Source: Okeania sp. SIO3I5
Lineage (GTDB): Bacteria; Cyanobacteriota; Cyanobacteriia; Cyanobacteriales; Microcoleaceae
Direction: 5' to 3'
NCBI RefSeq assembly: GCF_010672085.1
Contig: NZ_JAAHHT010000078.1
Span: 1 to 35,896, forward strand
DNA length: 35,896 nt
Shown: piece by piece, positions 6,721 to 26,900 of the stretch
Position numbering within the stretch: the stretch's first letter is position 1
How the letters are laid out: every line of letters begins with the position of its first letter
The notes under the pieces: model-generated
Told to the model about the DNA's origin: nothing
Seen by the model: the letters and a program-made list of their open reading frames with translations, nothing else
Databases searched by the model: none
Program-made: the position numbers and the translations under genes

Positions 6721-6825
6721 TTAGGACTTACGCAAAGAAACCCGGTTTCTACGAGAAATCATTGTTTTGAACAACAGACGTCTACAAGAAACCGGGTTTC
6801 TGGGTTCGCATAGCTTTAGTCCTGC
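6721..6825. repeat. Dispersed repeat with GAAACCCGGTTTC hairpin and AGGACTTACGCA end
   Basis: Lies between the convergent genes. It starts TAGGACTTACGCA and ends with a degenerate TTTAGTCCTG. Two opposed copies of AGAAACCCGGTTTCT pair across about 45 bp. The AGGACTTACGCA end is shared with the element inside bchH (27213-27305) and with 13618-13690. The hairpin could also end transcription from both sides. Copies of the GATAACT heptamer follow at 6827-6847. Confidence 0.65.
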
Positions 6826-6907
6826 TGATAACTGATAACTGATAACTCAAATAACGCACATTTTCAAGCTAAACGCACTACTACTACCAAACCAGAGAAA
6901 AAATATT

Positions 6908-7933
6908 TCACTCTTCTAGCGTCTTCAGACCTCCTTTACTTGATGTCGCTAAGTACACCCCAAACAAAATAACAACAAATGTTAACAAGTTAAATAGAGT
7001 TAAAGTTTCTGAAAAAATTACCCAAGCTAGGATAGCAGTAATCACTGGATGGAGCAGCAATATAGTCGCAAATAATCCTGCAGATAACCGTTTGAGGCTA
7101 TAAGCTGTCAAACTTTGAGCGGTCACTAAAACAATACCAGCAGAAGTGACACTTAGCCAAACTCCCCAAGAATGGGGCAATATTCCCTCACTAGCTACCT
7201 GAATAGCTTGGAAACCATGAAAAGGTATGATCTCATAATTTTCAAAGGTTCCAACCAATACAATTGGTAGTAAAAAAACCGTTCCTAGCCAGGAGTTAAA
7301 AGTTGTTATTGTATCTATATTTAATCGAACTCGCAGTTTCTCTAAAACCAGTACATACCCACCAAAAGAAATAGCAGAAACTAAAGCCAGTTCATCACCT
7401 TGTAGTTTGTCAATAGCTATCGAGAAGTCATTAGCGACTAGAGCGATCGAACCGGCAATAGAGATCCCTATGCCGATGATAAATTTGCGATCGAACACTT
7501 GACCCAAGAACATCCATCCCACCAAGGTAGTAAATAGTGGAGTCAGACTGTGTAAAACCTCGGAGTTAGCAACGCTAGTTTCAGTCAGCGACCAAGCATA
7601 AAGTAGTTGGTGTCCTACAGAAAATCCGGCCATTATTAACAACAGGAGTAAGAGTTTATAGGCATCTGGGAAAGGTTTGATAGTCAAGGCATTTCCTGAC
7701 CATCGCTGCTTGAGGAAGGATATTCCATTCCACAATAACAAAACAACAGCGCCGACCCAGCGTTGATTAAATATAGTAGCATTGGGACTAAGTTCGGATT
7801 CGCTGACTTTGACCAGGATGGGGAGGAAAGCGATAAGGACAAGAATAGCCAAGACTGCCCCTAAAGCTAATAGGGTTTCGCGAAGGGCAGTTGATGGGGA
7901 AGTTAATTCTAATTCTTTTGTCATTAAACCCAC
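6908..7933 (-). CDS. EamA/DMT-family inner-membrane transporter
   Basis: About 341 residues with ten predicted hydrophobic helices arranged as two EamA repeats, the layout of drug/metabolite transporters (RhaT/YdcZ-like exporters). Helix-rich segments such as VLAILVLIAFLPILV at the N-terminus and LLTFVVILFGVYLA near the end support this. The motif LHSLTPLFTTLVGWMFLGQ is typical of the end of the first EamA unit. The longest reading begins at GTG 7933, but ATG at 7924 (MTKELEL) is the likelier start. Substrate cannot be told. The upstream side carries family A element copy 2, immediately before the start. Confidence 0.88.
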   Translation of the reverse strand: MGLMTKELELTSPSTALRETLLALGAVLAILVLIAFLPILVKVSESELSPNATIFNQRWVGAVVLLLWNGISFLKQRWSGNALTIKPFPDAYKLLLLLLIMAGFSVGHQLLYAWSLTETSVANSEVLHSLTPLFTTLVGWMFLGQVFDRKFIIGIGISIAGSIALVANDFSIAIDKLQGDELALVSAISFGGYVLVLEKLRVRLNIDTITTFNSWLGTVFLLPIVLVGTFENYEIIPFHGFQAIQVASEGILPHSWGVWLSVTSAGIVLVTAQSLTAYSLKRLSAGLFATILLLHPVITAILAWVIFSETLTLFNLLTFVVILFGVYLATSSKGGLKTLEE

Positions 7934-14199: not shown

Positions 14200-16266
14200 A
14201 TGCAGTCTGGAAAAATCCTGAGAAACCACTACAAAATTATTGACTCTCTCGGAAGCGGAGGGTTTGGAGATACCTACTTAGCTGAAGATTTAGACTTACC
14301 AGGAAATCCTAAACGGGTAGTTAAGCATCTATCACCTAAAGAGCAATTAGAGCAACTATCTAAACAATCAGATCAAAGAATTCTTTTAGATGATGCTAAA
14401 AAACGTTTTGAGAAAGAAGCAAAGACTCTAGACAAGTTAGGGAAAGACTCAGACCAAATACCAGAATTATTTGACTATTTCCAAGAAGGAACAGAATTTT
14501 ATCTAGTACAAGAATATATAGAAGGGCACGATATAAGTAAAGAACTGACACTAGGGAAAAAATTAAGCGAGTCTGACACCATTGCCCTACTCAAAGGAAT
14601 ATTAGAAGCATTAGCAGTAGCTCATCAAAACAATATTATTCATCGAGACATCAAACCACAAAATTTGATGCGCCGTAAGTCAGACAACAAAATAGTATTG
14701 ATAGACTTTGGAGCAGTAAAAGAAATAAGTGTATTAACTACAGGTAAACAACGAGGAAAAACAACTTTAACTGTAGCAATAGGTACACCTGCGTATATGC
14801 CAACCGAGCAAATTAAAGGCAAACCAAAACCAAGTAGCGATATTTATGCAGTGGGAATAATAGGAATACAAGCACTCACAGGCAAACATCTCGATGATTT
14901 CCCCACAGATTCAAAAACCGGAAATGCGAGCTGGCGAAATGAAGTACAAGTAAGTAACTGTCTGGCAGATATATTAGATAAGATGGTACATGAATCTTTT
15001 CGACAGCGTTATCAAAATGCCACAAAAGTATTAGAAGCATTAAATTTAATGATTGCAAGAACTACACAAGATCCCAAACCTAATAAAATAAAAAGAGTGG
15101 TTGCTGATTTTGGGTATTATTTGTATTTTTGGGTAGTTGCTAAACTATTAAATAACAAATATTTTAAATTATTCAGTTTTCATTTTCATACCTTGATTCA
15201 GCAACGCCGAAAAACAGTAGCAGCAAAACCCCAATCCCAACTCCAAGCGAATCAAACTAGAAGACAAATATTGATATTGGGTGGTCTAGCAGGAAGTGGG
15301 TTTGTCGCAGCAATATGGAGTAGAGATTTGAAGGATAAACCATCTGCAGAAATAATTTCTACTCCCCAACCAATACCAGATACAACTCCAGAAATAATTT
15401 CTACTCCCGAACCAACTCCAGTAACTCCTCTTCCACAACAACCTAAAATTTCCATTCAGAAATTTACTACCGTCACAGTTAACAGCAGAGGAGAAAAAAT
15501 AAGTAGCGATCCAGGTGAAGTAGAAGTAATGACAGAAAACCTAGGTAATAAAGTCTCCTTAGAAATGGTAAAAATTCCCGCAGGTAAATTTCTCATGGGG
15601 TCTCCAGAGACAGAAGCATGGAGACAGAATAATGAAAGTCCCCAACATTATGTAGATGTGCCAGAATTTTTCATGGGAAAGTATCCAGTCACTCAAGCAC
15701 AGTGGAAAGCGGTTATGGGAAATAATCCTTCTTACTTTAAAGGTGCAAACCGTCCTGTAGAAAACGTAAGTTGGAACGACGCCACAGAATTTTGTCGGAA
15801 ACTCTCACAAATAACAGGTAAAAAATATAGTTTACCGAGTGAGAGTCAGTGGGAATATGCTTGTCGAGCTAGAACTTCCACACCATTTTATTTTGGTGAA
15901 ACTATAACGTCTGAGTTAGTTAACTTTAATGGCAGCTATATTTATCGCAATGCACCTAAAGGAAAATATCGTGAAGAAACAACAAATGTGGGAACTTTTC
16001 CTCCCAATGCTTTTGGTTTGTACGATATGCACGGGAATGTCTGGGAATGGTGCGCTGATGATTGGCATGATAATTATAATGGAGCGCCTACAGATGGAAG
16101 TGTTTGGTTAGAGGGAAATAAGAATCTTTCTCCGCTTCGGGGCGGTTCGTGGTTTCTCGATCCTGGTTTCTGCCGTTCTGCGTATCGCAACTATGACTTG
16201 AGGCGCGACATCCTCAAAAACCAATATGGTTTTCGTGTTGTGTGTGATAGCGGGATAACTCTGTAA
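14200..16266 (+). CDS. Ser/Thr protein kinase with membrane helix and C-terminal FGE-sulfatase-like (C-type lectin fold) domain
   Basis: 688 residues. The kinase (about 10-290) has the Gly loop LGSGGFG, a candidate ATP lysine in VVKHL (Lys42), HRDIKPQN from His148 (catalytic Asp150) and DFG from Asp169, so it looks active. A single hydrophobic segment lies near 355-375, followed by a Pro/Thr-rich linker to about 417. The FGE-sulfatase-like domain spans about 445-685 (MVKIPAGKFLMGS, PVENVSWNDATEFCRKLS, LPSESQWEYACRA, DMHGNVWEWC, LRGGSW). It is probably a binding fold, not an active formylglycine enzyme. The last 40 residues look like a DGR variable region (separate entry). No Shine-Dalgarno is obvious; a heptamer array abuts the start. 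The likely role is a sensor kinase with a diversified ligand-binding tail. Confidence 0.9.
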   Translation: MQSGKILRNHYKIIDSLGSGGFGDTYLAEDLDLPGNPKRVVKHLSPKEQLEQLSKQSDQRILLDDAKKRFEKEAKTLDKLGKDSDQIPELFDYFQEGTEFYLVQEYIEGHDISKELTLGKKLSESDTIALLKGILEALAVAHQNNIIHRDIKPQNLMRRKSDNKIVLIDFGAVKEISVLTTGKQRGKTTLTVAIGTPAYMPTEQIKGKPKPSSDIYAVGIIGIQALTGKHLDDFPTDSKTGNASWRNEVQVSNCLADILDKMVHESFRQRYQNATKVLEALNLMIARTTQDPKPNKIKRVVADFGYYLYFWVVAKLLNNKYFKLFSFHFHTLIQQRRKTVAAKPQSQLQANQTRRQILILGGLAGSGFVAAIWSRDLKDKPSAEIISTPQPIPDTTPEIISTPEPTPVTPLPQQPKISIQKFTTVTVNSRGEKISSDPGEVEVMTENLGNKVSLEMVKIPAGKFLMGSPETEAWRQNNESPQHYVDVPEFFMGKYPVTQAQWKAVMGNNPSYFKGANRPVENVSWNDATEFCRKLSQITGKKYSLPSESQWEYACRARTSTPFYFGETITSELVNFNGSYIYRNAPKGKYREETTNVGTFPPNAFGLYDMHGNVWEWCADDWHDNYNGAPTDGSVWLEGNKNLSPLRGGSWFLDPGFCRSAYRNYDLRRDILKNQYGFRVVCDSGITL
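16138..16239 (+). other. Candidate DGR variable region (VR)
   Basis: The end of the FGE-like domain runs from RGGSW (Arg647-Trp651) through CRSAYRN to GFRVVC (677-682). Conserved scaffold words are separated by residues that in known cyanobacterial DGR target proteins derive from adenine-rich (Asn) codons of the template. DNA composition shifts abruptly: 32 of 60 bases are G or C at 16141-16200, against 23 of 60 at 15961-16020 in the same gene. No template repeat or reverse transcriptase is in the window, so a remote cassette would have to act on it. Confidence 0.6.
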
Positions 16267-16310: not shown

Positions 16311-16500
16311 TCCATCCGTGTATCCGTGGCCAAATCTGTGTGAGCTATCCGTGCCATAATCCGCGTGAGCTATCCGTGCCATAATCCATCCGTGTATCCG
16401 TGCCATAATCCGTGTGAGCTATCCGTGCCATAATCCCTGTGAGCGGAGAAGTCAGGGCAAGACAAGGATTTTGCCACGGATACACGGATGATAGAATCTG
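16311..16500. repeat. ATCCGTGTATCCGTGCC dispersed repeat cluster
   Basis: Several direct copies of AGCTATCCGTGCCATAATCC and ATCCGTGTATCCGTG, then an opposite-strand copy (CCACGGATACACGGATG, 16473-16489). A related sequence forms the tandem array inside bchH at 25230-25658, where it encodes GHGYTDD. Confidence 0.8.
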
Positions 16501-16852: not shown

Positions 16853-17479
16853 GTGGTATTAATGATTGCAGGAATTGATAGAACAACGATGTCGTTCGAC
16901 GAATTCATAGCTTGGTATCCAGAGAATTCTGAAAAACGATACGAATTGAGACGAGGAGTAGTTATCGAAATGCCGAAACCCAGAGGGAAGCATTCCAGAT
17001 TAGCGGGCGATCTAGCCTACGATCTGGGGACTGCCCTACGACAAGGAAATCAACCCTATTTTATTCCCAAGGAATGTATCGTTAAAGTCGGCAATGACAC
17101 AGGTTATGAACCAGACATTATCGTTTTAGATGAAATTGCCCTAGCAGATGAACCCAGATGGGAGCGAGAATCGATCGTTACTTCAAGTCAGTCGATAAAA
17201 CTTGTGGTAGAAGTCGTTTCAACCAACTGGCGTGATGATTACCTGGTAAAACTGGCAGACTATGAAGCATTGGGTATCCAGGAATATTGGATCGTTGATT
17301 ATTTGGGAATCGGTGGTAGGCGCTATATTGGTTCTCCCAAGCAGCCCACATTTACCGTTTGCACGTTGGTGGAGGGGGAATATGAACTACAGAAGTTTCG
17401 CGACAGTGACCAAATTATTTCTCCCACATTCCCAGCATTTCAACTAACGGTTAACCAAATTTTCGCTCCAGGTAAGTGA
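16853..17479 (+). CDS. Uma2-family (DUF820) putative restriction-like endonuclease
   Basis: About 208 residues of a family with a PD-(D/E)xK nuclease fold that is strongly expanded in cyanobacteria. The expected parts are present: MSFDEFIAWYPENSEKRYEL at the N-terminus, GYEPDIIVLDE (motif Asp), KLVVEVVS (motif Glu) and YEALGIQEYWIVDY. The function of the family is not settled; roles with mobile elements are suspected. The longest frame begins with GTG 16853, but ATG 16862 (MIAGIDR), with GGAG at 16847-16850 eleven bases upstream, is the better start. It converges with the antitoxin gene. Confidence 0.88.
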   Translation: MVLMIAGIDRTTMSFDEFIAWYPENSEKRYELRRGVVIEMPKPRGKHSRLAGDLAYDLGTALRQGNQPYFIPKECIVKVGNDTGYEPDIIVLDEIALADEPRWERESIVTSSQSIKLVVEVVSTNWRDDYLVKLADYEALGIQEYWIVDYLGIGGRRYIGSPKQPTFTVCTLVEGEYELQKFRDSDQIISPTFPAFQLTVNQIFAPGK

Positions 17480-18253: not shown

Positions 18254-20944
18254 TTATCCGAAATTGCTCAAAGTTTTCATAGCAAACTGTTTGATTTGCT
18301 CATCTAAATCATTTCCAGCTCGATCGCGCAATACCCCAAGCATCCCATCACTGACTGGATATTGTTCAATAATTGCCTCTAGAGCAGCTTTTCGCGGATT
18401 ATTCTCCCAATCTTCCTGACGAATAAAAGGATCAGAACAGGCGCGATCGCAGAAAAACTCAAACATTCCCGGTTCCTGATACCAATCCAAAGCTAACTGC
18501 TGTATTGCTGAACGTCGGACAAAAGCATTATCATCAAACTCAGCTAATTTTTTCAGAATAACAACCGTTTCAGGATGACTTTTTTCTACCAAAGCTAGTA
18601 ATTCCAAAGCAGTTTGTCGCACATAAAAACTATCATCATTGACAGCCACTTGTTTGATAATTTCTATAATCTCAGGGTAACTGTGCCAACAAATCCCCAA
18701 CTCTACTACTGCTGTTTGTCGTACGCACATATCCCCATCATCAAGAACTAACCGTTTAAACAACGCCAACGTCTCAGAATCTCCCTTCCATCCCAGAGCT
18801 AATTGTTGCATTGCTGCTTGTCGTACTTCCAGTTCATCACTAGACTCAATCCTTTGTTTGATAATACAAAAAGTATCAGAGTCATCTTTCCACCCCAGAG
18901 CTAATTGCTGCATTGCCAACTGTTGCAAATCTGGACAATGAGCAGATACAGCCAGTTTTTTCAGAGCAGATATAGTATCAGGATCATCATGCCAATCTGT
19001 AGCTAACTGTACCACTGCTGATTGTTGTAGCTCGGAACACTTATCAGACAGAACCAATTGTTTAATAATATCCAAAGTGTCAGGATCATCCTTCCAATCT
19101 GTAGCTAACTGTTCCATTGTCGCTCGTTGTACATCAGAACATGGATCGTCAACAGCTTGTTGTTTCAGCAAAGCCAAAATATTCGGATCAGCTTGGCGAT
19201 CGCTAGCTAATTTGCTAATAGCTGCTATCCGTACATCTGAAGATTTGTCCGCAGCAGCTATTTGCTGGAGAGTCGCTAGAGTATCAGGATGATCTTTGTA
19301 ACTCTTTGCCAATAGTTCCATTGCTGCAATGCGTACCTCCGAAAAACGATCTGACACAACTACTTGCTTAATAGTAGCGATCGCTTCCGGGTCATTTTTC
19401 CAACCAGAAACCAACATCTCCATTGCTGCAACCTTGACATCGTGGCGTTCGTCAGATAAAGCAACTTTTTTGAGAATAGCAAAAGTATCAGGATCATCAT
19501 GCCAAGTCGTAGCTAGTTGTTCAACTGCTAACTTTCTTGTATGCCAACAATTGTCAGAGACAACAACTTTTTTGAGAATATCTATAGTATCAGGATCATC
19601 TTTCCAACCTATAGACAATTCTCGTATTGCTGCCACTCGTACATCAGAGTTAGACAGAGCCAATTTTTTCAGGAGAGCTAAAACACTGGGTTCATCTTTC
19701 CACCCAACAGTTAATTGCGCCAGTGCTATTTCTCCCACTACCCAACATTCAGGAGATTCAGCTTGTTGTTTGAGAAAAGTTAAAACATCAGGATCGTGTT
19801 GCCAAAATGCACCCAACTGCACTACCGCTAATTCTCGCATCTGCCAAGATTCGTCATCCTGAACTACCTGTTTCAGAATAGCGACAGTATCTGAGTCATG
19901 TTGCCAATTTTCGATCAAATAACCCAGTGCTGATTTTCGCACTTCTAAAACTGGATCTGATATAGCTAACCGTTTCATAATAGCCACTGTATCAGAATCT
20001 GTTCTCCAATCTTGCCCTAAGTGTTCCACTGCTGCCAGTCGGACATGAAAACATTTGTCAAATACTGCGAGTTGTTTGAGAGTTGATAAAGTTTCCGAGT
20101 CATCTCGCCAATTTTGAGCTAGCTGACTCATAGCTGCTCGTCGTACTTCTGCAGCTTGAGCAGAAACAGCCAACTGTTTAATGATATTTATAGTATCAAG
20201 GTCATCTTTTCCTAGTTGAGCTAACTTGGATACTGCTTCCGAAGCCACATAGGGGTTGGAGTCAGACATTGCTATTTGTTTGAGCCACACCAGAGTCTGG
20301 GAGTCAAATTTTCCATCTTGATTCAATTTTTCTATTATTGCTAGACGCACTCCCCAATGTCGATCTGATTCTGCTCTTTTTTTCAGCCACCCAAGAGTCA
20401 GGGGGTCTTCTTGCCAACCTTCGGCTAAAAGTTCTACTGCTGTCTCCCGTAAGGTTTCATCAATATCAGATACTGCTCGTTGTTTGAGAAAAGCTAATGT
20501 ATCAGGATCGTTTTTCCAGTTTTGTGCTAATTGTTTGAGAGCTACAGAGCGCACATTTAACGAGCGATATCGATCTGCTAAAATTAATTGTTTCAGGAAA
20601 GCGATCGTATTCGGGTCTTCATGCCAACCCGCAATCAAATAGTTGAGTATGGCTTCTTGCAACCACCAATACTCATTATTGGATACTACTAATTGTTTGA
20701 GGAAAGGTAGAATATTGGGGTCATTTGGCCAACCTTGGACAAAATATTCTGTTGCTGCTCTCCGGACATCTGGACATTTACCTGATATGGCTAATTGTTT
20801 GAGAATAGGTACAGTATCCGGGTGATTTTTCCATTCAATAACTAACTGTTCGAGTGCTGCTCGTTGTAAGTCTGAATCTTCCTCAAACACTGCTTGGTGT
20901 TTGAGGGATAATAAAGCATTTGGATCATTTTTGAGCATTATCAT
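18254..20944 (-). CDS. HEAT-repeat protein, standalone
   Basis: 896 residues made almost entirely of about 27 helical repeats of 31-33 residues with the pattern W-x-DDPDT-x-x-ILKQLA-x-SD-x-x-x-x-VR-x-AA-x-x-QLA. The pattern matches HEAT-like alpha-solenoids seen as C-terminal sensor regions of cyanobacterial NACHT/STAND proteins. No NTPase, nuclease or membrane part is present, and the protein starts nearly in phase with the repeats. No catalytic motif is visible, so a scaffolding or ligand-binding role is inferred. The final repeats (about 840-896) are more diverged. It could be a detached sensor of a former NACHT protein or a genuine solenoid adaptor. Confidence 0.85.
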   Translation of the reverse strand: MIMLKNDPNALLSLKHQAVFEEDSDLQRAALEQLVIEWKNHPDTVPILKQLAISGKCPDVRRAATEYFVQGWPNDPNILPFLKQLVVSNNEYWWLQEAILNYLIAGWHEDPNTIAFLKQLILADRYRSLNVRSVALKQLAQNWKNDPDTLAFLKQRAVSDIDETLRETAVELLAEGWQEDPLTLGWLKKRAESDRHWGVRLAIIEKLNQDGKFDSQTLVWLKQIAMSDSNPYVASEAVSKLAQLGKDDLDTINIIKQLAVSAQAAEVRRAAMSQLAQNWRDDSETLSTLKQLAVFDKCFHVRLAAVEHLGQDWRTDSDTVAIMKRLAISDPVLEVRKSALGYLIENWQHDSDTVAILKQVVQDDESWQMRELAVVQLGAFWQHDPDVLTFLKQQAESPECWVVGEIALAQLTVGWKDEPSVLALLKKLALSNSDVRVAAIRELSIGWKDDPDTIDILKKVVVSDNCWHTRKLAVEQLATTWHDDPDTFAILKKVALSDERHDVKVAAMEMLVSGWKNDPEAIATIKQVVVSDRFSEVRIAAMELLAKSYKDHPDTLATLQQIAAADKSSDVRIAAISKLASDRQADPNILALLKQQAVDDPCSDVQRATMEQLATDWKDDPDTLDIIKQLVLSDKCSELQQSAVVQLATDWHDDPDTISALKKLAVSAHCPDLQQLAMQQLALGWKDDSDTFCIIKQRIESSDELEVRQAAMQQLALGWKGDSETLALFKRLVLDDGDMCVRQTAVVELGICWHSYPEIIEIIKQVAVNDDSFYVRQTALELLALVEKSHPETVVILKKLAEFDDNAFVRRSAIQQLALDWYQEPGMFEFFCDRACSDPFIRQEDWENNPRKAALEAIIEQYPVSDGMLGVLRDRAGNDLDEQIKQFAMKTLSNFG

Positions 20945-23999: not shown

Positions 24000-26900
24000 C
24001 ACACCTTCAATTTCCTCATCCGCTAATTCATACAACTCCCGCAATTTCTGCAACTTCTCCTCATCTGTTTGCCAAAAACCACGTCCGTTCGCTTCCAACA
24101 TCCGCCCAATAATATTCCGAAACGCTTCTGGGTTTGCTTCCCGCAATTTCTGCGCCATCTCTGCATCCAAAGCATAAGTTTCGGCAGCACCGTCATAAAC
24201 CCAATTATCTACAAAATTAGCGGTACCGCCCCAACCTATCAACGCGGTCATACGTTGAGAAATCTCGTAAGCTCCCCCACTACCTTGATTTGCCATTGCT
24301 TCTGCCCACTTTGGATTCAATAATTTGGTGCGATATTCCATCCGCAACAAGTCTTCTAATTTTCGGGGGGTTGTATCTTTAGAGAAACTTTCGACAAAAC
24401 TCGCACTTACTTTTTTACCCGTTTGTTTTTCTGCTGCCAATTTCAACCCACCAGTATTAGCATAATATTCCTGAATATCTGTCAAACCATACTCCACCGA
24501 GTCAATTTCTTGGACGATGCGATCGCAACCTTTCAACAATTCCTGCAAAATTTCTGGGCGTGCCTCTCCTTTATCTTTGCGTCCGTAACTAAAGACGTTT
24601 CGCCCTTGCCAAGTATCGCCTAACTCATCCGCTGACTCCCAGTTACTATCCACAACCCGATCATTCACCAAGGAACCAAAATCACCAGCAGGATTAGAAA
24701 ATAACCGCGCTGAAATATTTTCTACTCCCTGCGCTTGCAATGCTAAAGCGTGTTTGCGGATAAAATTTTGTTCTACGGGTTCGTCTGCTGTTGCTGCTCG
24801 TTGGAATAGATCGTCTAATAATTCAATAATATTGACAAAACTATCCCTGAAAATTCCTGATAAATTTCCTAAAATATCGATGCGGGGATGACCGACTTCA
24901 GCTAAAGTCTTTAATTCATAACGAACGATTCTACCTGTACCTTCTTTTACTGGTTCGGCACCTACTAATTCTAATAAAATTCCGATTGATTCACCCCGAG
25001 TTTTAATAGCATCTAATCCCCATAACATTACTGCCACAGTTTCAGGATAATTATGATTTTCTTCGAGATGTTGAGCAATAATTTTCCGAGCAATTTCTCG
25101 CCCTCTTTCATAAGCAGCAGGAGAAGGCATTCGATAGGGATCTAAAGCATGAATATTTCTACCAGTCGGCAAAACTCCCGGACCATCTCGTAATAAATCT
25201 CCTCCTGGAGCAGCCGGAATATATTCTCCATTTAATCCCCGCAAAAGATTAGTCAATTCGTCAGTATTTTGCATCAACAAATCCCGAATATTTGCAGCAT
25301 CTTTATTAACCGAATCATCCGTATATCCGTGCCCAAAATCCGTGTCTTGCTTATCGGTTAATCCCCGCAAAAGATTAGTCAATTTATCAGTATTTTGCAT
25401 CAACAAATCCCGAAGATTTGCAGCATCCTTCTTAACACCATCATCCGTATATCCGTGCCCAAAATTCGTGTCTAGCTTATCAGAATTTCGCATTAACAAA
25501 TCCCGCATATTTTTAGCATCCTTCTTAACATCATTATCCGTATATCCGTGCCCAAAATTCGTGTCTAGCTTATCAGCATTTCGCATCAACAAATCCCGCA
25601 TATTTTTAGCATCCTTCTTAACACCATCATCCGTATATCCGTGCCCAAAATCCGTGTCTAGCTCTCCAAAATAAGCCTCCAAATAAGATTTTAATTCTTC
25701 CTGATTCGGCACTTCTCCCAAAGTATGCAAACCAGAAGAAAATAATCTTTGTTCTACAACCTGCAAATATTCGTAAATTTCCACAAAATAGGGATTAACC
25801 ACATCTGCACTAAACATCCGTGCATTTTCCGCAGTAAATTCAATCCCTAATTTTTTCCCATACTCAAACGGACAATCTGAATTTAAACCAGTATCAAAAA
25901 TCTTCTTAAAAATCGATTCTCGCAACCCCGAATTTTTCTGGGGGTCTTCCCGATATTCAGAAATTAACTCTCGCAAACTAACCAATTCTTTATACAAACC
26001 TGCCCGACTATAAGGCGGAATATTATGAGAAATTAAAACTCCATAACCACGGCGTTTTGCCAACATAGATTCGGAAGGATTATTAGCAGCATATATATAT
26101 AGATGTGGCATATTTCCTAACAGAATATCTGACCAAGAATAGCCAGTATTTCCCAAGGGCGAACCGGGTAACCATTCCACAGTTCCGTGCATTCCAAAAT
26201 GAACAATTGCATCTGCTTGAAATTCATTTTGGAGCCATTTATAAAAAGCTGCATATTGGGGATGGGGGGTTAAATCTCTTTCAAACATTAAGCGCATTGG
26301 GTCGCCAGAAATTCCGAGGGGTGGTTGTACACCGAGCCAAATATTTCCTAATTGAATTCCGCCAATATGAAAATTTTCACCATCGGTTTTTATGCCAGTG
26401 CGGGTCAGATTTCCCCATTGTTTTTCCATGCGACTTGTTGATAGATATCCTAACCATTTTTCTAGGGTTTTAATATTAACTTGGTTGTTATCCCCCCTCG
26501 TTCCCCACTTGAAAATATCTTGGTTGTTATCCCCCCTCGTTCCCCCCTTTGAAAGGGGGGAGGTAGGAGTAGTGTTTTGCTTTTTGGAAAGGGGGGAGGA
26601 AGAGGAAGCATAAATTTCGTCTGCTTCTTTAATTTGACGAATAAGTTGTTCCCCATCTTCAGGAATTTCCCCAACGTTGTAACCCTCCTCTTTCAAAGCG
26701 TGGAGGAATTTGAGGAGCGATCGCGGCACATTTAATAATGCTGCTGTTCCTGTGGCGCCATAACCGGGAGGAAAACCATAAAGAATAACGGCAATTTTTC
26801 TTTCTGCGGGGGGTGTCTGACGCAGTTTTATCCAATTTTTGACTCTACCTGTGAGGCGTTTGACTCGTTCGGGAATCAAATAAATATCTTCTCCGACTAA

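Follow-up and report, generated by a model that had tools for sequence, protein, structure and literature searches.

The window, that is, the whole stretch of 35,896 nucleotides analysed here, is an entire contig (C539) of Okeania sp. SIO3I5. It carries a gene for a serine/threonine protein kinase with a C-terminal FGE-sulfatase domain of the C-type-lectin (CLec) fold, whose tail had been proposed as the variable region (VR) of a diversity-generating retroelement (DGR). The features are listed in Table 1. The FGE domain matches Treponema denticola variable protein 1 by sequence (PDB 2y3c; E 7.1e-22). A predicted model of the domain, mediocre within the VR with pLDDT below 50 in parts, had PvdO as its best match and also resembled 2y3c (TM 0.75, Foldseek) and formylglycine-generating enzymes. 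2y3c is known as TvpA, and the Treponema protein is a DGR target. Both proteins are variable proteins with an FGE-like fold. The solved chain of 2y3c has 294 residues and is too short for a kinase, whereas the window protein has one. A membrane anchor of the kinase, assumed in the preliminary description, is not established; hydropathy gave one weak hydrophobic stretch, with a Kyte-Doolittle value of 1.56.

Table 1. Features of the kinase-FGE gene and of its variable region (positions in the window).
Feature	Position	Strand	Basis
Pkinase-FGE gene, remote DGR target type	14200..16266	+	ORF, 688 aa
Serine/threonine protein kinase domain, Pfam PF00069, aa 11-276	14230..15027	+	E 3e-34
Possible single transmembrane or RR-signal-like stretch, aa 356-374, weak	15265..15321	+	hydropathy only
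FGE-sulfatase / C-type-lectin-fold domain, Pfam PF03781, aa 455-681	15562..16242	+	E 1.8e-56
DGR variable region (VR), B type	16141..16261	+	blastn to Crocosphaera TR, adenine bias
Variable codons 1-3 (template AAC AAC AAT)	16153..16161	+	alignment to template
Variable codons 4-5 (template AAT AAC)	16165..16170	+	alignment to template
Variable codons 6-9 (template AAC AAC AAC AAT)	16189..16200	+	alignment to template
Variable codon 10 (template AAC)	16210..16212	+	alignment to template
Variable codons 11-14 (template AAC AAC AAT AAC)	16216..16227	+	alignment to template
3' conserved VR end common to template (GGTTTTCGTGT...GGGATAACTC)	16228..16261	+	sequence alignment

Orthology of the window kinase by synteny was rejected. 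The sepF-proC neighbourhoods fetched from six congeners are without such a kinase (in G003, the contig reaches only ~430 bases beyond proC). The window kinase was therefore compared with its nearest homologs, which are not proven orthologs. Downstream, the window encodes an 896-aa protein with 11 HEAT_2 stretches (18254-20944, minus strand) near a Uma2-type nuclease gene (16853-17479). Tandem arrays at 16321-16444 and 25232-25663 have a common ATCCGTGTATCCGTG-like motif. Around the broken DGR locus of L035, a similar string is found again (~6740-7460; partly masked).

The blocks RGGSW, CRSAYRN and GFRVVC, on which the proposal of a VR was built, are present at the gene end as described. The accompanying jump in GC content is real: 33 of 60 bases at 16136-16195 compare with a mean of 22.4 for upstream 60-mers (SD 3.6, maximum 30). 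The architecture alone is no proof, as RGGSW...GFR also ends FGE domains without a VR. For this reason, a template repeat (TR) was sought. None was found inside the window. The earlier statement that neither a reverse transcriptase (RT) nor a template repeat lies nearby thus holds for the window, in which the best matches were at E 5.3 for RT, E 0.12 for Avd and E 0.04 for a TR outside the VR.

Two templates with the framework of the window VR were found among the DGR RT loci of other cyanobacteria, one in Crocosphaera MO_188.B44 (L166:9003, GGSWNNNPNNCRSAYRNNNNRRDNHNNNNGFRV) and one in the unicellular cyanobacterium SU3 (L168:8925). This B-type template has the pattern GGSW-NNN-P-NN-CRSAYR-NNNN-RRD-N-H-NNNN-GFR with adenine-rich AAC/AAT codons. 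The Crocosphaera TR adjoins an open RT and Avd. It aligns to the VR with 72.7% identity over 121 nt (E 3.7e-15), while its next-best place within the window has E >1. In the 99-nt core, 18 of 33 template adenines are mismatched versus 9 of 66 other bases (p=3.1e-5; single template, picked because its framework fitted the search pattern). Over 123 nt of TR, the mismatches are 19/37 at adenines and 16/86 elsewhere (p=3.3e-4). The two VRs of Crocosphaera itself differ from the TR at 13/33 and 18/33 adenines and at none of the 66 other bases. In the window, differences are concentrated at template adenines, as expected in the preliminary description. Six of the nine non-adenine mismatches are third bases of variable codons; variable codons 11-14 include AAA and CAA, both with a changed third base.

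The TR/VR homology stops beside the stop codon, which places the VR close to the 3' end of the CLec gene. The conserved end of the VR lies where the initiation-of-mutagenic-homing site is expected and may have this function. Other templates fit less well. The A-type TRs of Okeania SIO2C9 were rejected, since the B-type fitted best of three TRs. The C-type TR of a second DGR in Trichodesmium erythraeum GBRTRLIN201 (L107) has an SDEAD framework in place of the RRD of the window, though it resembles the B-type TR (73.7% over 95 nt). The match to a real template with mismatches at adenines strongly supports the last ~40 codons as a genuine DGR variable region.

The tail is not alone. In the loci read from the 10.5 Mb genome of the strain, 19 tails of this kind were found; one more, L078, served as a control. 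Seventeen of the 19 are adenine-biased (p<0.05, best of three TRs, chosen by fit at non-adenine sites, which favours low non-adenine counts), and the two exceptions both lie in L042 on contig C335. Pooled mismatches by template base were 300/614 for A, 121/612 for C, 69/582 for G and 93/613 for T. FGE tails of the same genome with similar endings and without a VR had no adenine bias in any of six comparisons (p>=0.28; only two control tails, scored against all three TRs without choice). Three VR-bearing FGE genes look broken by internal stops or a domain split over both strands (C92:1920-2606, C133:15680-16369 and C1:149385-150148).

In the genus set, 42 distinct B-type VR cores have a diversity of 0.585 at columns with a TR adenine versus 0.124 elsewhere. 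By codon position, the diversity is 0.433/0.389/0.170 in the VR versus 0.146/0.130/0.300 upstream (upstream segments from 18 of the 42 B-type genes). This inverted pattern also supports the VR and argues against an ordinary divergence of FGE domains, in which RGGSW...GFR would be generic and the variable residues normal loop divergence. The similar ends of the two control tails favour such a divergence. The adenine-specific mismatch to real templates, the negative controls and the stronger variation of codon positions 1 and 2 make it hardly credible.

Close relatives point the same way. Four B-type pairs are 93-97% identical upstream. Three of these differ at 47-66% of adenine sites and at 0-9% of the others. 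The fourth is from L145/L148/L150, a conserved set in which only 3-9% of adenine sites differ (3% for the pair). The window gene and its nearest relative, L129 from Okeania SIO2F4, are 91.4% identical upstream; the differences between their VRs affect 56% of adenine sites and 19% of other sites. Gene conversion among paralogous kinases, rather than a DGR, could now spread and reshuffle the tails. The 19 paralogous tails in one genome and the scattered kinases, missing at sepF-proC in the six congeners, agree with it. However, each of the 19 tails has a VR of its own, and gene conversion would not pick adenine sites, though it could be superimposed on an older DGR pattern. We consider it very unlikely.

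The generator was searched for in the draft assembly of the strain (562 contigs, rated 99.98% complete). RVT_1 had 31 matches, mostly group II intron-like by their motifs; many such RTs, together with remnants, populate this genome. A DGR motif of the GNLTSQ kind was absent from 28 scanned loci covering 30 of the 31 matches (C338:3798-4493 lay outside). A search with the DGR RT fragment had contig C526 (E 1.4e-76) as its sole match below E 0.01. C526 encodes a kinase with a VR. Behind it come the 5' flank of a template, which breaks off after GCTCCGTG, then a short repeat of the CTGATAACTGA type and RT codons 233-345. Only 113 of 353 RT codons align; about two thirds of the RT are gone. In Okeania SIO2C9 (L159), the order is VR, TR2, Avd, RT and TR1. 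The alignment of C526 to this locus reaches the 5' end of the template and then jumps to RT codon 233, which corresponds to a deletion of L159:6648-8534; TR1 is also absent. C526, the sole DGR locus found in the assembly, has lost the template, the Avd and most of the RT. Downstream, it carries a PP2C gene that corresponds to the one in Trichodesmium MAG_R02 (L105), which identifies C526 as the native place of the DGR. The VR beside the broken DGR is A-type.

Elsewhere in the draft assembly, neither a template repeat (by pattern or BLAST) nor an intact DGR RT was found, and no bAvd match exceeded the cut-off. A weak bAvd match on C22 (24.9 bits, cut-off 40) was rejected. By eye, it resembles a four-helix protein of the 23S-IVP type, and its 3.3-kb locus has no RT. 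The diversifying machinery appears to be lost in this genome. The second, near-identical copy of the VR predicted in the preliminary description was not found; the template family was identified in other cyanobacteria instead. The suggestion of a DGR acting in trans is likewise left without support, by these losses and by the state of the VR itself.

In a live VR, the framework would be recopied, whereas an orphaned VR would be expected to accumulate changes at the third positions of variable codons. In the window tail, 3 of the 14 codons with an AAY template end in a purine, the most among the 42 cores. Third-base deviations number 7 of 14; as many or more occur only in L048 (8) of the same genome and in L155 (7) of Hydrocoleum, which carry one 25-aa VR core in two genomes. 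Non-adenine deviations (8 of 43 core sites) are not extreme: L129 and L147 have as many, L048 and L155 more. The B-type tails of the strain have 4, 4, 5, 8 and 11 of them and those of T. erythraeum GBRTRLIN201 (G004) just one in 6 of 7 cores, counts raised for the strain, Hydrocoleum and the other Okeania genomes because the consensus leans to G001, G004, G005 and G006 (29 of the 42 cores). In these four genomes, which include the Trichodesmium genomes G001 and G004, 21 of the 29 B-type cores have at most two deviations. On the basis of third-base erosion, the window tail is read with moderate confidence as retired. Three other B-type VRs of the strain (L002, L003 and L004) are less eroded, with 2, 2 and 1 third-base deviations, so the activity may have ceased late or not all at once.

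The search for the B-type template was extended beyond the strain. It was not found in any of the seven assemblies of the genus set by a 30-base pattern or by BLAST. The two pattern matches were one C-type TR and one VR. BLAST gave 65 matches, of which 62, judged by eye, were at FGE-tail matches. The other three were rejected as templates. L235 is a B-type VR located at the edge of a contig. L241 comprises the final 38 bases of a match, also at a contig edge, and is uninformative. L240 has an FGE-like tail, C-type by its look and without a match to the three TRs.

Ruins of B-type DGRs are present. T. erythraeum GBRTRLIN201 has a 40-aa stump of the Avd together with a short one of the RT between two B-type VRs (L243, G004:C171:73000-77500), and Trichodesmium MAG_R02 has a 40-aa Avd stump after a B-type VR (L249, G001:C499). 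Identity of these Avd stumps to the B-type Avd of Crocosphaera is 77.5% and 82.5%, versus 57.5% and 62.5% to the A-type Avd of Okeania. The RT stump is 54.8% identical to the Crocosphaera and 48.6% to the Okeania RT. A 29-aa RT end behind another B-type VR (L242, G001:C401) matched the Okeania RT only, and its type is open or A.

Most DGR RT genes examined in the clade look damaged. Among the loci brought in by the pattern-based search, an RT open from end to end was present in 1 of 7 clade loci (SIO2C9, L159) and 14 of 15 loci of other cyanobacteria (Fisher p=6e-4; four loci duplicating clade loci and 12 non-cyanobacterial loci omitted; L170 and L171 look alike and are maybe not independent). 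The DGR RTs of L103, L104, L105, L106 and L107 from Okeania, Hydrocoleum and Trichodesmium have stops, frameshifts or missing parts, and the Avd of L106 also carries a stop. As many assemblies are metagenomic, single stops and frameshifts may be errors. The broken RTs could be assembly errors or real decay.

Together, the observations are best explained by a real DGR variable region of a remote kinase target that is now orphaned and probably retired, after an apparent loss of the machinery in this genome. We assign this reading a probability of about 0.7. The C-terminal module of the kinase would have been shaped by mutagenic retrohoming, with a B-type template as the source. The tail would now be fixed and slowly eroding, in one of ~19 kinase/lectin sensors, each retaining the binding surface from the time at which its DGR ceased to work. 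By analogy with the family, a ligand that presumably binds to the variable face would control the kinase, which passes the signal on. The weak hydrophobic stretch may place the lectin module outside the membrane.

With 562 contigs in a draft assembly, an intact cassette could sit in an assembly gap or in a minority of cells, which would speak against an orphan. For other disrupted DGR loci, long reads gave intact structural variants, according to the part of PMC10907252 consulted. The tail would then be an active remote target, still rewritten in trans by a DGR that is present in cells of the strain. Several observations favour this. At least 11 of 18 TR/VR loci of T. erythraeum IMS101 are hypervariable in Tara metagenomes (PMC8867640, in part), three of the four closest B-type pairs differ strongly at adenine sites, and the kin carry A-type DGR genes, mostly damaged. 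Against it stand an assembly rated nearly complete without TR, Avd over the cut-off or intact RT, the deleted syntenic DGR locus, the eroded third bases and the failure to find a B-type TR in the genus set. An active target is therefore unlikely.

A variant concerns the whole genus. The B-type targets could have been rewritten by a visiting template, that is, an itinerant DGR on a plasmid, a phage or a transient insertion. This idea comes from the 21 nearly uneroded cores in G001, G004, G005 and G006, where no B-type template was found, just ruins in G001 and G004. It is quite improbable. If true, an itinerant DGR would re-diversify the whole kinase set when present and fix it when lost, with bursts of repertoire renewal.

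The proposed orphan has known counterparts. Kinase-lectin remote targets of cyanobacteria are on record (PMC7517822, PMC8867640); for the kinase-CLec type, such targets, their dispersal and a loss of parts needed for diversification were described or suggested (Vallota-Eastman et al. 2020, PMC7517822; this and the following statements refer to excerpts of the papers). The window protein is of the same type, with a C-terminal CLec on a serine/threonine kinase, a VR at the 3' end and dispersed paralogs far from an RT. In that study, identity links a remote VR to a DGR within its own genome. The window VR differs, as no intact DGR core was found in its assembly and its template type was not found in the genus set. 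T. erythraeum IMS101, from the organism group of the window's kin, has two DGR RTs, remote targets and 18 TR/VR loci, at least 11 of which vary in nature, in contrast to the mere RT remnant in the window's genome (PMC8867640). Thiohalocapsa PB-PSB1 has disrupted DGR loci, remote targets and a VR that matches a TR elsewhere at non-adenine sites, in which it resembles the genome of the window (PMC10907252). In Thiohalocapsa, TRs acting in trans or intact structural variants were identified; in the genome of the window, none were.

In the open-licence literature searched, no account of orphan DGR variable proteins, of DGRs in Okeania or of lost DGRs with remote targets was found. Two results have not been seen in print there. 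One is that, across the clade, many targets go together with ruined generators; the other is that Crocosphaera allowed the missing B-type template to be identified. The case illustrates the fate of DGR targets after loss of the generator, with ~19 kinase/lectin tails kept apparently without a working one. Third-base erosion offers a simple clock to separate live from retired variable regions. A fixation of DGR repertoires after selection has been suggested (PMC7517822, in the part consulted). With a single open RT among its seven loci, the clade could show directly whether this holds.

Two minor observations concern the DGRs of other genomes. The second DGR of T. erythraeum GBRTRLIN201 (L107, G004:C237) adjoins, by eye, genes for an AAA-type ATPase and a trypsin-like peptidase and resembles conflict systems of multicellular bacteria. 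DGR loci with an FGE-type template in an Aquimarina MAG (L176) and a Pseudomonadota MAG (L177) have RTs with 51% and 46% identity to that of Trichodesmium. This likeness may reflect a transfer between phyla.
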